Source: Saccharopolyspora galaxeae (lineage in GTDB: Bacteria; Actinomycetota; Actinomycetes; Mycobacteriales; Pseudonocardiaceae). Taken from it: 64,000 nucleotides of DNA. The stretch's first letter is position 1, and each line of letters begins with the position of its first letter. Position numbers and translations under genes: made by a program. This document shows, piece after piece, positions 31,084 to 37,900 of this stretch. The notes under the pieces were generated by a model. The model saw nothing but the letters and a program-made list of their open reading frames with translations. It did not search any database and was not told the origin of the DNA. The stretch covers positions 124,001-188,000 of the forward strand of contig NZ_JADDUE010000006.1 of NCBI RefSeq assembly GCF_016526145.1, written 5' to 3'.

Positions 31084-31986
31084 ATGGCTGCTGTAACCCG
31101 ATTCCACGGTTCGCTCGACGATTCTCCGGACACCGCGTCGAGTCCGCGTACCCGCCTGCGCGCACTGATGCGCCAGGCCGAGCGCGAGCGCACGCAGCAG
31201 GAACGCGAGGACGGGCCGACGCCGACCGGCCGGGATCCCGGAACGGAAGAATTGCCACCGGAACCCGAGGGTGGGTCCCGCGCCGGTCCCTCGAATGCGG
31301 ACCCGCCCACGACGTCGACGCCAGTGCGGCGAGCTTTGCGCAGATGGCTGCCCGAATCGTGGTCGCGTGCCCGGGTCGATCCTGGCAGGTACGGGCGGCT
31401 CGGGATCGTGCTCGCCGCGGTCGTCGCGCTGGCCGTGGTCGGAGTCGTCACGTGGCTGGACCGGCCGGTTCCCGAACCGGCGCCGGCCGCTCCCGTCCCG
31501 GAACAGGTCGCCGCACCACCGGTTCAGCAGGCCGCCGCGCCGCCGCCCGCGGACTTGGTGGTGAGCGTGGTCGGTGAGGTGTCGCGTCCCGGCCTGGTCA
31601 CGCTGCGCCCCGGCGGGCGGGTAGCCGATGCGCTCGATGCGGCGGGCGGCGCGTTGCCCGGAACCGACATCACCACGTTGAACCTGGCCCGCAGGCTCGT
31701 CGACGGGGAACAGCTCTACGTCGCAGTGCCGGTACCTCCCGGCGCCCAACCGGGAGGCCGGCAGGCCTCGACGCCCGAGCCGGGTGGAGCGGGCAGCAAA
31801 GTCGATCTCAACACCGCCACGGAGGAACAGCTCGATGCGCTACCAGGAATCGGTCAAGTCACGGCCGAACGGATCGTGCAATGGCGGGAGCAGCACGGCC
31901 GGTTCGGCTCGGTCGACCAGCTCGGAGACGTCGAAGGGATCGGGGACACCCGGATGGAGCGGCTGCGGGAGCTGGTCCGGGCGTGA
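31084..31986 (+). CDS. comEA: ComEA-like helix-hairpin-helix DNA-binding membrane protein
   Basis: The 300-residue protein has a charged cytoplasmic N-terminus (1-100), one transmembrane helix (about 105-122, LGIVLAAVVALAVVGVV), a Pro/Ala-rich linker, and an SLBB domain (about 157-215). Tandem helix-hairpin-helix motifs fill the C-terminal 60 residues (KVDLNTATEEQLDALPGIGQ). It should bind double-stranded DNA outside the membrane for uptake with ComEC. Its stop overlaps the comEC start by four bases. Many actinomycetes carry these genes without known competence, so the role could be DNA scavenging. Confidence 0.94.
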   Translation: MAAVTRFHGSLDDSPDTASSPRTRLRALMRQAERERTQQEREDGPTPTGRDPGTEELPPEPEGGSRAGPSNADPPTTSTPVRRALRRWLPESWSRARVDPGRYGRLGIVLAAVVALAVVGVVTWLDRPVPEPAPAAPVPEQVAAPPVQQAAAPPPADLVVSVVGEVSRPGLVTLRPGGRVADALDAAGGALPGTDITTLNLARRLVDGEQLYVAVPVPPGAQPGGRQASTPEPGGAGSKVDLNTATEEQLDALPGIGQVTAERIVQWREQHGRFGSVDQLGDVEGIGDTRMERLRELVRA

Positions 31987-34352
31987 GGGCCAAGTCCTTC
32001 GCGCTAGGGTCCACATTGGACTTGCGGTTGCTGCCCGCTGCGCTGGTCACGTGGTCGATCACCTTGGCCGGTTTGCACGGCGGGTGGCCGACCGCGGCGG
32101 CGCTCTCGTGCGCGACGCTGCTCCTGCTGCCGATGGCTTGGAGGTTCGGGCGCGGGCGCGCTTGGCGCAACGGCGTGCTGGCCGTGCTGATCATCTCCAG
32201 CGCCGCGGCCACCGGGATCGCCGTTCGGACCCACGCGGTGGCCGCGCATCCGTTGCGCTCGGCCGCACGGCAGGCCGAGCAGGCGGAACTGCGTGGCACA
32301 TTGGTGGAATCGCCGCGGCCGTTGCAGGGTGCCTCCTACGGTGCTCGCCGGGCGCAAGATCGCTCGGTGGCCAGGCTGCGATTGGACTCCGTCGAGGTCG
32401 ACGACCGCCGGACGCTGGTGGGCGGGCAAGTTCTGCTGCTGGCCCCTACCGAGCAGTGGGGCGCGCTGACGGCCGGCCAGCAGGTCACCGTGCACGGCAA
32501 GGTCCTGCCGCCGCGGAATGGGGAATTGCTCGTCGCGGCCGTTGCGACCTACGAAGCGCCCGAAGGCGTATCGCCCGCGCCGAGCTGGCAGCGTGCAGCG
32601 GAGGATCTGCGCGAGGGACTGCGCGAGACTTCACGCGCGATGCTCGGCCCAGCCGCAGCCGGACTGCTGCCGGGCCTCGTGGTCGGGGACACCGGCAAGC
32701 TCCCGCCGGAAGTCGTCGAGCAGTTCAACACGGCCGGACTCACCCACCTAACCGCGGTTTCCGGCTCGAACCTCGCGATCGTCTGCGGGGCGGTGTTGCT
32801 CGTGCTGCGCCTGATCGGCGCAGGCCCTGCCGTGTCGGCCGTGGGGGCGGCGCTGGCGATGATCGGCTTCGTGGTGCTCGCCGGACCGGAACCGAGCGTG
32901 CTCCGGGCAGCGGTGATGGGCTCGATCGGGCTGCTCGCCCTCGTCCTCGGCCGCGAACGGTCGGCGCTGCCGATCCTCTCGGCGAGCGTCGTCGGCCTGT
33001 TGCTGCTGGCGCCGGGCTTGGCCACGGCCGCGGGGTTCGCGCTATCGGTGGCCGCGACGGCCGGGCTGATCGTGCTCGCGCCGGTGTGGGCGGACGCGCT
33101 GCACTCGCGCGGGGTGCCGGTGGGTGTCGCCGAGGCCCTGGCGGTTCCGGCGGCGGCGCATCTGCTCACGGCGCCACTGGTGGCAGCCGTTTCCGGCGAG
33201 GTCAGCGTGGTCGCAGTGCTGGCGAACCTGCTGGCCGGGCCGGTGGTGGGGCCGGCCACCGTGCTGGGAGTGTGCGCGACGCTGCTCGCGCCCGTTTCCG
33301 GAACGCTGGCGAGCGCTCTGGTGTGGCTGGCGGGGCCGGAGCTGGAGTGGGTGCTGGCCGTCGCCCGCCATTCGGCCGCGGTTCCGGGCGCGTCGTTCGA
33401 CTGGCCTTCCGGCGCTGGAGGCGGCCTGCTGCTGGCCGTGCTGGCGTTGATGTTGCTGGTGGTTCTGCGCGGCCGGATTTCGCGGATGGTGCTCGCAGCC
33501 GTGGTCCTGCTGTTCGTCGTCGTGGTGATCCCGGTACGGCATCGGGTAGCTCCGTGGCCGGTTCCCGGCTGGACCGTGGTCGCCTGCGATGTCGGGCAAG
33601 GCGACGGCCTGGTGCTGGCCACCGGGCGTCCGCACGAGGCCGTGGTGATCGACACCGGGCCGGACCCCGTGCTGATGAGCGATTGCCTGCAACGCCTGGA
33701 GATCCGCCGCATACCACTGTTGTTGCTGACGCATCTGCACGCGGACCACGTCAGCGGAGCGCCCGCGGTGCTGTCCGGCCGAGCGGTCGGCGCACTCGCC
33801 GTCGGATCGCTGCGAGAACCCGCTTGGGCTTTCCGGGAGGTGACCGCGGCGGCCCGCGCCAACCGCGTACCGGTGATGCGGCTGAGCGCCGGTCAACGAG
33901 TGCGGTGGCCGGGCCTGGTGCTCGACGTGCTCGGACCTCGCGGCGAGCTGGCGCGAACCCGCTCGAGCGAGGACGCCAACGACGCTTCGCTCGTGGTGAA
34001 GGCGACCACGCCGCACGGGCGGATCCTGCTCACCGGCGACGTGGAACTACCCGGCCAGGGGGAACTGCTGGATTCGAGGGCGAACCTGCGTGCCGAAGTG
34101 CTCAAGGTCCCGCACCACGGCTCGCGCTACACCACGCCTCGTTTCCTCGCGGCCGTAAGACCGCGGCTGGCTGTGGTCAGCGTCGGCGCGGGCAACAGCT
34201 ACGGACATCCGAGCCCGCTGGTGCTCGGCGAACTGACCCGAATGGGCACCCGAGTGTTGCGCACCGACCAGTCCGGCGACGTCGCGATCGTGCAGGACGA
34301 GCAGGGCAGGCGAGCGGTCGAGTGCGGCGATCCGGTCCGCCCGGAGAACTGA
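31983..34352 (+). CDS. comEC: ComEC/Rec2 DNA-uptake channel
   Basis: The 789-residue protein has an N-terminal membrane and DUF4131-type soluble region (1-230). A competence domain with many transmembrane helices follows (about 240-520; LTHLTAVSGSNLAIVCGAV). A C-terminal metallo-beta-lactamase-like domain contains DVGQGDG and the metal-binding THLHADHVSG (about 583-592), followed by LKVPHHGSRY. It forms the channel that passes one strand of DNA into the cell and may degrade the other. The active-site histidines are intact. The start is the GTG overlapping the comEA stop. Confidence 0.95.
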   Translation: MRAKSFALGSTLDLRLLPAALVTWSITLAGLHGGWPTAAALSCATLLLLPMAWRFGRGRAWRNGVLAVLIISSAAATGIAVRTHAVAAHPLRSAARQAEQAELRGTLVESPRPLQGASYGARRAQDRSVARLRLDSVEVDDRRTLVGGQVLLLAPTEQWGALTAGQQVTVHGKVLPPRNGELLVAAVATYEAPEGVSPAPSWQRAAEDLREGLRETSRAMLGPAAAGLLPGLVVGDTGKLPPEVVEQFNTAGLTHLTAVSGSNLAIVCGAVLLVLRLIGAGPAVSAVGAALAMIGFVVLAGPEPSVLRAAVMGSIGLLALVLGRERSALPILSASVVGLLLLAPGLATAAGFALSVAATAGLIVLAPVWADALHSRGVPVGVAEALAVPAAAHLLTAPLVAAVSGEVSVVAVLANLLAGPVVGPATVLGVCATLLAPVSGTLASALVWLAGPELEWVLAVARHSAAVPGASFDWPSGAGGGLLLAVLALMLLVVLRGRISRMVLAAVVLLFVVVVIPVRHRVAPWPVPGWTVVACDVGQGDGLVLATGRPHEAVVIDTGPDPVLMSDCLQRLEIRRIPLLLLTHLHADHVSGAPAVLSGRAVGALAVGSLREPAWAFREVTAAARANRVPVMRLSAGQRVRWPGLVLDVLGPRGELARTRSSEDANDASLVVKATTPHGRILLTGDVELPGQGELLDSRANLRAEVLKVPHHGSRYTTPRFLAAVRPRLAVVSVGAGNSYGHPSPLVLGELTRMGTRVLRTDQSGDVAIVQDEQGRRAVECGDPVRPEN

Positions 34353-34420
34353 GCCGAGCACCTGGACCACCGCGGCTTGCGCTCCGCGAGCCGCGCACGC
34401 GCGCGGCCCGCGGCGGACGG

Positions 34421-35692
34421 TCACAGACCCAGCGCCTGGTTCACCGAGTCGGTGTTCGGGGCGACGGTCGCCTTCGGGCCGACCTGGTCCTGCACGGCGT
34501 CGAGCGTCTTGAGGCCGTCGCCGGTGATCAGCAGCACCGTCTCCTCGTCCGGATCGATCTTGCCCGCCTCGATGAGCTTCTTCGCGGTCGCGACGGTGAC
34601 CCCGCCCGCGGTCTCGGCGAAGATGCCCTCGGTCCGGGCCAGCAGCCGGATGCCGTCGACGACCTCCTGGTCGGTGACGTCCTCGATGGCTCCGCCGGTG
34701 CGGCGCACCGTGTCGAGCACGTACGGCCCGTCGGCCGGGGCGCCGATCGCCAGCGAGCGGGCGATGGTGTCCGGGCGCACCGGCTGCACCACGTCCTGCT
34801 GGCTCTTGAACGCGGTGGAAACCGGGGAGCACCCGGCGGCCTGCGCGCCGAAGATCTTGTACGGGCTCTCCTCGACAAGGCCGGTGTGCTGCAGCTCGCG
34901 GAAGCCCTTGTCCACCTTGGTCAGCTGCGAGCCGGAGGCGATGGGCACCACGATCTGCTCCGGCAGCCGCCAGCCGAGCTGCTCGGCGACCTCGAAGCCC
35001 AGCGTCTTGGAACCCTCGGAGTAGTACGGGCGGACGTTGACGTTGACGAACGCCCAGTCCTCGTGCTCCCCGGCCAGCTCGGTGGCCAGCCGGTTCACGT
35101 CGTCGTAGTTCCCGTCGACCGCGAGCAGCGAGCCGTCGTAGACCGCGCTCATCAGGATCTTCGCGCGCTCCAGCGTGGACGGGACCAGCACCACCGAGTC
35201 CCAGCCCGCGCGGGCCGCCGCGGAGGCGACCGCGTTCGCGAGGTTGCCGGTGGAGGGGCAGGCCAGCACCCGGAAGCCGAATTCGCGGGCGGCGGCCAAC
35301 GCGACCGCGACCACGCGGTCCTTGAAAGAATGGGTGGGGTTGCCGGTGTCGTCCTTGACCCAGATCCGCTTGACGCCGAGCGCCTTGGCGAGGTTGTCGG
35401 CACGCACCAGCCTGGTACAGCCGGGTTCGGTGTTCGGGTGCTCCTCGACGTTGCTCGGCACCGGCAGCAGGTGCTTGTAGCGCCAGATCGAGCGGGGGCC
35501 TGCCTCGATGTCCTCGCGGCGCACGCGGCCGAAGTCGTAGGCGACCTCCAGCGGCGAGAAGTCCTCCAGCGACACGAATTCCGGGGCCAGCGGCTGGCGA
35601 TGTCCCTCTTCCTTGGACACCAATTCGACGGCCGGACCGAGGTCGTAGGCCGTCTTGGCGGTGGAGTTCGTGTGTTGGGCGGCAGCGGTCAT
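34421..35692 (-). CDS. thrC: Threonine synthase
   Basis: This PLP enzyme turns O-phosphohomoserine into threonine. The 423-residue protein has the PLP-binding lysine in HSFKDRV (K124), ACPSTGNLANAVASAA and the GSQLTKVDKGF segment. It is longer than the roughly 360-residue ThrC of the hom-thrC-thrB operon of many Actinobacteria and resembles the long, plant-like type. It stands alone, with no hom or thrB nearby, so a second thrC elsewhere is possible. Its leader holds a SAM-I riboswitch (35708-35830), and the ribosome-binding site AAAGGA is 8 nt before the ATG. Confidence 0.96.
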   Translation of the reverse strand: MTAAAQHTNSTAKTAYDLGPAVELVSKEEGHRQPLAPEFVSLEDFSPLEVAYDFGRVRREDIEAGPRSIWRYKHLLPVPSNVEEHPNTEPGCTRLVRADNLAKALGVKRIWVKDDTGNPTHSFKDRVVAVALAAAREFGFRVLACPSTGNLANAVASAAARAGWDSVVLVPSTLERAKILMSAVYDGSLLAVDGNYDDVNRLATELAGEHEDWAFVNVNVRPYYSEGSKTLGFEVAEQLGWRLPEQIVVPIASGSQLTKVDKGFRELQHTGLVEESPYKIFGAQAAGCSPVSTAFKSQQDVVQPVRPDTIARSLAIGAPADGPYVLDTVRRTGGAIEDVTDQEVVDGIRLLARTEGIFAETAGGVTVATAKKLIEAGKIDPDEETVLLITGDGLKTLDAVQDQVGPKATVAPNTDSVNQALGL

Positions 35693-35707
35693 CGCGAGGT
35701 CCTTTCC

Positions 35708-35830
35708 TCATCTATCCCGCGGGCGGGTCGGAATTGGCACCGAATTCTTCGACTGCCTCGCGCGAGCCGCGAATGGTCGAGATGGTTGCCGGGGCTTCTA
35801 CGGGCCGTTCCCTCTGCCCCTCTGGATGAG
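35708..35830 (-). promoter_or_regulatory. SAM-I (S-box) riboswitch in the thrC leader
   Basis: Read on the minus strand from 35830, the RNA shows the S-box landmarks in order: CTCATCCAGAGGGGCAGAGG (P1/P2 and kink-turn side), GAACGGCCCGTAGAAGCCCC, GGCAACC, then GGTGCCAATTCC and GGGATAGATGAG. P1 forms between CTCATC (35830-35825) and GATGAG (35713-35708). The ribosome-binding site AAAGGA (35706-35701) begins one base after P1, and no terminator hairpin with a T-run lies between the aptamer and the ATG. Control of translation initiation is therefore more likely than attenuation. The class assignment is firm; the direction of control is inferred. Confidence 0.95.
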
Positions 35831-35938
35831 CTATTCGGTTGTACCGGCAACGTTACGGGACGGCGCCGCACCATGGCCAGGGGCGCCCGCGCAGCGGGAA
35901 CGCCCGGCAGTGCCGGACGGTCATGCGACGATGCCCCT

Positions 35939-36922
35939 ATGAGTTCTCCGTCGGTGGTCCGCGACCCGCTGCACTTGATCCTCGGTGACGAAGAACTGCT
36001 GGTGGAGCGGGCTTTGCACGAGACGGTGGGCGCGGCGCGGGCGGCCGACCCGGAAACCGAGCTGCGCCGGATCAAGGTGAGTGAACTCACCCCCCCAGAA
36101 CTGGATGAACTGCTCAGCCCATCGCTTTTCGCGGAGAGCCGGGTAGTGGCCTTGGAGGCGGCGCAGGACGCGGGCAAGGAGATCGCCGAAGCGGTTCTTT
36201 CGCACGCTCGGCAACCCGCCGAAGGGGTCGTGCTCGTCGTCGTGCACAACGGGGGTGGGCGCGGCAAGAACGCCAAGGAACTGCCCGGCGCGCTGCGCAA
36301 GCTCGACGCCCGGGTGACCGAATGCCAGAAGATCACCAAACCCGCGCAGCGGGAAGCGTTCGTGAAGGACGAGGTGCGCCGCGCCGGCGGCCGCATCGAC
36401 GCCGCCGGAGTCAGCGCGCTGATCGAGACCGTCGGCTTCGACCTCCGCGAGCTGTCGTCCTCGGCTTCCCAGTTGGTGGCCGACACCGGCGGCAAGGTCG
36501 ACGAGAACGCCGTGCGCCGCTACCACCGCGGCCGCGCCGAGGTCACCGGGTTCGTCGTGGCGGAGAAGGCGGTCACCGGCGACCGCGCGGGCGCGTTGGA
36601 GGCGCTGCGCTGGGCGCTGCAACTCGGTGTGGCGCACGTGCTGATCGCGGACGCGCTGGCGGATTCGGTGCGCACCATCGGACGCGTCGCCGCTTACGGC
36701 CGCGGGGATCCGTTCCGGCTGGCCGGTGAACTCGGTATGCCCGCATGGAAGGTGAAGAAGGCGCAGGCGCAGTCGCGGGGCTGGAGCAGCACGACGGTGG
36801 CCGATGCGTTGCAAGTCGTCGCCGCGCTCAACGGCGAGGTCAAGGGGATGGCCGCGGACGCCGACTACGCGTTGGAGCGCGCAGTGCGCAGGCTCGTCGA
36901 CCTGCATTCCACCCGGACCTGA
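35939..36922 (+). CDS. holA: DNA polymerase III delta subunit
   Basis: The 327-residue protein starts MSSPSVVRDPLHLILGDEEL and has LFAESRVVALEAAQDAGKEI (shown to 20 residues), ITKPAQREAFVKDEVRRAGG and the C-terminal helix region with AGELGMPAWKVKKAQAQSRG. These fit the delta subunit that opens the sliding clamp in the clamp-loader complex. It follows comEC and precedes rpsT on the opposite strand, as in mycobacteria (Rv2413c, Rv2412). The ATG at 35939 was chosen by family length; the upstream region is the divergent thrC promoter and riboswitch. Confidence 0.93.
   Translation: MSSPSVVRDPLHLILGDEELLVERALHETVGAARAADPETELRRIKVSELTPPELDELLSPSLFAESRVVALEAAQDAGKEIAEAVLSHARQPAEGVVLVVVHNGGGRGKNAKELPGALRKLDARVTECQKITKPAQREAFVKDEVRRAGGRIDAAGVSALIETVGFDLRELSSSASQLVADTGGKVDENAVRRYHRGRAEVTGFVVAEKAVTGDRAGALEALRWALQLGVAHVLIADALADSVRTIGRVAAYGRGDPFRLAGELGMPAWKVKKAQAQSRGWSSTTVADALQVVAALNGEVKGMAADADYALERAVRRLVDLHSTRT

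Positions 36923-37253: not shown

Positions 37254-37900
<647 letters not shown>

Follow-up and report, generated by a model that had tools for sequence, protein, structure and literature searches.

In the stretch of Saccharopolyspora galaxeae DNA analysed here (64,000 nucleotides, hereafter the window), a SAM-I riboswitch most likely controls the translation of metM, the gene of a homocysteine synthase whose synthesis would be turned off by SAM, and not that of a threonine synthase, a reading to which we assign a probability of about 0.85. The aptamer lies in the leader of a metM-like gene, is conserved on that gene among relatives and co-occurs with genes of methionine metabolism; from this setting we infer the binding of SAM, the OFF direction of the control and the activity of the protein. 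The preliminary description of this DNA had taken the gene for that of a threonine synthase, and to it a switch shutting the gene at high SAM looked backwards. The apparent paradox stems from the gene name: since the gene most likely makes methionine and not threonine, its closure would be ordinary SAM feedback, and the SAM-I switch, real and ordinary in itself, stands on a methionine gene that is probably misnamed.

The features of the leader, all on the minus strand, are as follows.

35838-35842, minus strand: ACAAC, a possible -10 region element (conserved in relatives shortly before P1)
35705-35832, minus strand: SAM-I (S-box) riboswitch aptamer (RF00162 match)
35825-35830, minus strand: P1 5' strand, CTCATC (cmscan alignment and sequence)
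35716-35727, minus strand: P4 hairpin, CCCG/CGGG (sequence; the stem varies among relatives with pairing kept)
35707-35712, minus strand: P1 3' strand, GATGAG (sequence and cmscan alignment)
35696-35709, minus strand: predicted hairpin GAGG (35709-35706)/CCTC (35699-35696), a competitor of P1 with AAAGGA in its loop (MFE fold of the window segment)
35700-35705, minus strand: likely Shine-Dalgarno (SD) sequence AAAGGA (sequence; home-made scoring picks AAGGA in the window)
35690-35692, minus strand: ATG start codon (sequence and open frame; close relatives show the same ATG and spacing)
34421-35692, minus strand: metM-like gene, 423 aa, with the annotation-type name threonine synthase (PALP family; TIGR00260; class relatives at 60-73% identity)

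The earlier call of a SAM-I riboswitch is borne out by cmscan, in which RF00162 (gathering score 44.4 bits) matches over its full length (35832-35705, minus strand, model positions 1-108 of 108; 76.7 bits, E 2.9e-16), this being the sole gathering-level Rfam match in the whole 64 kb window. The S-box landmarks named at the time are all present in the minus-strand leader, and the 5' strand of P1 lies where it had been placed (35830-35825), whereas the 3' strand occupies 35712-35707 and not 35713-35708, one base off; similarly, AAAGGA does begin one base after P1, but the gap to the ATG is of 7 bases instead of 8. The purine run GAGGAAAGGA starts at 35709, inside P1. ACAAC, which in the window is two bases nearer P1 than in most relatives, could possibly put the transcript start near the aptamer; a simple consensus scan gave no sigma-70 consensus match. 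A scan of the same kind for terminator-like sites in 35640-36040 returned 0 (shuffle mean 0.4), in agreement with the previous failure to see a terminator.

Conservation of the leader was followed in two samples, namely the best 80 of 559 relatives in the family Pseudonocardiaceae (81 family leaders and proteins with the window) and 60 stretches from the class, picked for spread among the matches listed and representing 60 of 164 genomes with MetM, for a total of 141 leaders and proteins. Two S-box motifs precede the same gene in all of the best 80 relatives, and a third pattern, corresponding to the P1 3' strand, in 79 of these 80, the remaining one (L095) having GATGGG. Furthermore, RF00162 is found before metM in 60/60 of the chosen class stretches, with a lowest score of 47.0 bits, so that the occurrence of this leader on the thrC-like gene of related genomes, a point raised in the preliminary description, is confirmed. 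The P4 stem takes 52 distinct forms with pairing kept in 138/141 leaders, a count from which 3 leaders without the search motif were dropped and which leans towards finding a stem, as the script sought the best one. Because the S-box motifs and RF00162 matches recur before the same gene, and P4 varies with its pairing maintained, the RF00162 match in the window is not due to chance.

The gene at 35692-34421 very probably encodes a MetM ortholog and not a threonine synthase. The protein matches the PLP-enzyme family PALP (Pfam) and, against the MetM reading, scores 271.4 bits with TIGR00260 (thrC, NCBIfam), above the cut-off of 167.1. This model, however, does not separate MetM from ThrC, since it gives 273.4 bits to L138, the product of a class metM that is followed by a carrier gene. 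The assignment to MetM was made by comparison with the 60 class proteins; identity to them is 60-73%, and 48 of the 60 are encoded with a carrier gene behind. The genome also contains the second thrC that had been thought possible in a hom operon: its product (L030; 297.1 bits to the thrC model) is 35% identical to the window protein, and the gene is sited between hom (homoserine dehydrogenase, 550.8 bits) and thrB (homoserine kinase in a 683-aa frame, TIGR00191 220.8 bits). A 284-aa frame behind thrC was ruled out as thrB, having no Pfam match; thrB lies within the 683-aa frame overlapping it. In the alignment of the 141 metM-like proteins, the window residue is shared by at least 97% of the sequences in 151 columns, and 68 of these columns differ in the genome's own ThrC, 10 being gaps in ThrC. 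The window protein shares the PLP family and the SFKDR lysine motif with canonical threonine synthases (the own ThrC; PDB 2zsj, 6cgq, 1uim, 2d1f), but differs from them by about 65 extra N-terminal residues, and by NPTH for NPTG and ASGSQ for GNAGN of the own ThrC and the four PDB sequences. With a separate ThrC in hom-thrC-thrB and a MetM-like context, the original identification as threonine synthase is not supported, and the evidence favours the alternative offered alongside it, namely another role for this long ThrC. A misannotation is, therefore, likely across the actinomycetes sampled, in which what the standard model calls a threonine synthase would be, by context, a methionine gene, the riboswitch providing the clue.

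The arrangement of SAM-I and MetM is already in print (PMC12172450, PMC8079986). According to PMC12172450, MetM of Streptomyces albulus is a homocysteine synthase and a SAM riboswitch lies upstream of its gene. The window resembles this system in that a SAM riboswitch precedes the gene of a PLP enzyme similar to threonine synthase, but it has no metO-like gene behind metM and lacks all four N-terminal cysteines. In Streptomyces lividans TK24, RF00162 is reported before SLIV_16930-SLIV_16925 under threonine biosynthesis (PMC8079986), i.e. a SAM-I leader again stands on a gene listed as belonging to that pathway; at variance with the window, this is a two-gene transcript according to the same source, and the locus is presumably metM-metO.

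The distribution of methionine genes was determined across 246 genomes of the class. MetM was present in 164 (best E 1e-100 or better; counted by eye) and MetX in 142 at E 1e-50, a threshold adopted since the TIGR01392 cut-off was passed in 0/246 genomes; both were found in 70, MetM only in 94, MetX only in 72 and neither in 10 (Fisher p 2.4e-12, ignoring shared descent). In the family sample, 80/80 genomes have MetM and one or more RF00162 matches above the cut-off, 47/80 have MetX, and the 33 genomes without MetX are also without MetA (33/33). MetA as the missing acyltransferase was rejected, with 0/34 genomes positive and the control found in 6/14. Because MetM and MetX complement each other, and MetX-less genomes without MetA have MetM, the presence of MetM is linked to methionine synthesis among the genomes sampled. 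Two observations count against the MetM reading: MetX and MetY are present in the window genome as well, each scoring above its cut-off (the own MetX passes NF047917), so that MetM is not the sole route in this species, and no gathering-level SAM element was found around the own MetY-MetX within the 14 kb read. On the other hand, a second SAM-I element of the genome (L002:1501-1588, corresponding to C21:610649-610736; 61.8 bits) counts in its favour, lying about 380 bases before a metN-like transporter gene, whose product reaches 227.3 bits of the 499.7 cut-off of TIGR02314, i.e. below it, and has a NIL domain above its own cut-off; no terminator-like site was found between element and gene. 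In most of the family two RF00162 matches are found, and six in genome G249. In genome G293, a second MetM-like gene (C260:36786-38850; 64% identity) has a short SAM-I about 760 bases upstream; this genome is in about 380 contigs, and contamination is possible.

In the work of Hasebe et al. (2024) on S. albulus metM, MetO is said to act as a small sulfur carrier by way of a thiocarboxylate. That metO is missing here counts against the MetM reading, and, as none stands beside the window gene, the claim made is that of MetM and not of a MetM/MetO pair. A ThiS-family carrier gene lies behind metM, on the same strand and 3-310 bases from the match, in 48/60 class stretches, and none was seen within the bases examined in the other 12; no carrier gene is present at metM in the best 80 of 559 Pseudonocardiaceae loci (0/80, with 1637 to 3000 bases downstream covered), and a search of 31401-36400 of the window gave no carrier-like ORF with E <= 1; there, metM is followed by a convergent comEC-like gene. 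The four N-terminal cysteines are kept in 60/60 class proteins; among the 81 family proteins, all are gone in 57, kept in 20 and partly lost in 4. In the window protein, residues 26-44 lack the four cysteines that other MetM proteins have there with zinc-ribbon-like spacing.

The absence of a carrier gene from the metM stretches of the family and the loss of the cysteines, together with the presence of MetX and MetY in the window genome and the threonine synthase and deaminase activity described for a cyanobacterial homolog (PMC12172450), would be in keeping with a metM descendant that, in the MetO-less Pseudonocardiaceae, had drifted to another PLP reaction (e.g. a threonine synthase/deaminase side activity), leaving the riboswitch as a relic. 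We consider this unlikely, as the 33 family genomes devoid of both MetX and MetA, the joint occurrence of MetM and RF00162 in 80/80 and the retention in the window protein of the residues conserved among metM relatives all argue against it.

If the gene is metM, its product probably takes sulfur from CysO or free sulfide, since no metO is found beside metM in the family. CysO was used as a query in 47 genomes, namely 21 Pseudonocardiaceae (the own genome and 20 of the other 79), 20 genomes with metO and 6 without, and a close CysO was found in 47/47 (60-100% identity). A second carrier copy (45-59%) stands at metM in 20/20 metO genomes; in the Pseudonocardiaceae, 13/21 have only a weak second match (31-41%), never beside metM, and in 8/21 there is no second match at E 1e-5. 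For these 21 genomes, a close second carrier at another place was rejected, CysO being the only close one. The own CysO gene is flanked by a JAB-domain gene and a PLP gene, the arrangement expected of mec-cysO-cysM. The remaining ThiS-family proteins of this genome look like other carriers, namely one before a thiG-like frame, a MoaD-like one that closes a longer frame and an unassigned one ending in VAGG. Genomes G247, G248 and G262 have neither MetX nor MetA and a single close carrier. We tentatively put forward, with the odds somewhat against it, that Pseudonocardiaceae MetM, having no carrier of its own, might run on CysO, with the SAM-I element on metM setting the share that goes to methionine; one thiocarboxylated protein would, if so, feed both sulfur amino acids. 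Alternatively, the sulfur may come from free sulfide or a different carrier, or methionine may be taken up. Literature searches not aimed at this question returned nothing on metM without metO, and Pseudonocardiaceae metM would offer a clean test case for MetM working without MetO.

With respect to the mode of control, the sequence is in keeping with the translational regulation proposed in the preliminary description, as there is no terminator-like site and the SD run begins in P1. SAM-I elements whose ribosome-binding site forms part of the 3' strand of P1 have already been described, such direct translation attenuation being commonest in Actinobacteria and Cyanobacteria (PMC2258182). The window is like the switches of that report in having the ribosome-binding site at the P1 3' side and no terminator, and differs from them as there described in that most of its best SD, AAAGGA, comes just after P1 and that a competing hairpin is predicted. 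According to a crude home-made score, the best SD overlaps P1 in 51/141 leaders and follows it in 90/141, the window being in the latter group.

The GAGG/CCTC hairpin, as modelled, would compete with P1. The P1 3' strand can pair with downstream CCTC-like bases in 81/81 family leaders (31% in spacer shuffles), which hold only 22 distinct segments and are, therefore, not independent, and in 46/60 other leaders (37% in spacer shuffles); 0 of 5000 shuffle draws reached either observed count. Both arms are changed in L153 (AGCG/CGCT) and L154 (AGCC/GGCT), as real pairing would allow. In calculated fold energies, the P1 and P1-open states differ on average by 0.47 and 0.53 kcal/mol in the two leader groups; the P1 state is favoured in 67/141 leaders, and P1 makes the SD stretch less open in 92/141 but the whole spacer in only 53/141. 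Fold energies were, thus, rejected as proof of an OFF direction, the states being too balanced. In the fold of the window, the GGA of AAAGGA is base-paired when P1 is formed and open when it is not.

The most likely effect of SAM is to turn the gene off, P1 being closed against the SD region, a direction favoured by the gene's likely function and by the leaders with the best SD in P1. As reported for S. albulus, MetM would take O-phosphohomoserine, which is common to the threonine branch, and form homocysteine on the way to methionine and SAM. At high SAM, its binding to the aptamer would lock P1, which contains the start of the purine-rich SD run and abuts the rest, and ribosome initiation would be blocked; at low SAM, P1 would open, aided by the competing hairpin between its 3' strand and CCTC, and MetM would be made. 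The ON switch considered in the preliminary description is not required to explain the arrangement and is disfavoured. That the gene is instead a true second threonine synthase under an ON switch, SAM closing P1, breaking GAGG/CCTC and freeing AAAGGA to send homoserine carbon to threonine, is highly improbable: although TIGR00260 is above cut-off, each of the two folds conceals some of the SD, the purine run after P1 could serve as SD in some leaders (the best SD being there in 90/141) and P1 makes the spacer less open in 53/141 leaders and not in the rest, the genome already has hom-thrC-thrB, MetM substitutes for MetX across genomes, closure of P1 can only hide the SD in the 51/141 leaders in which they overlap, and in the window GGA is base-paired in the P1 state and open in the other.

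As to the surroundings of metM, a cold-shock-protein ORF is found 0.5-0.7 kb behind metM-metO in two class stretches (L124, L138), and one lies at 37541-37900 of the window, about 1.8 kb upstream of metM and on the other strand. RF00379 (the c-di-AMP riboswitch) occurs near metM, on a different gene, in three stretches (L153:2659-2811, L161:2698-2848 and L165:446-622).
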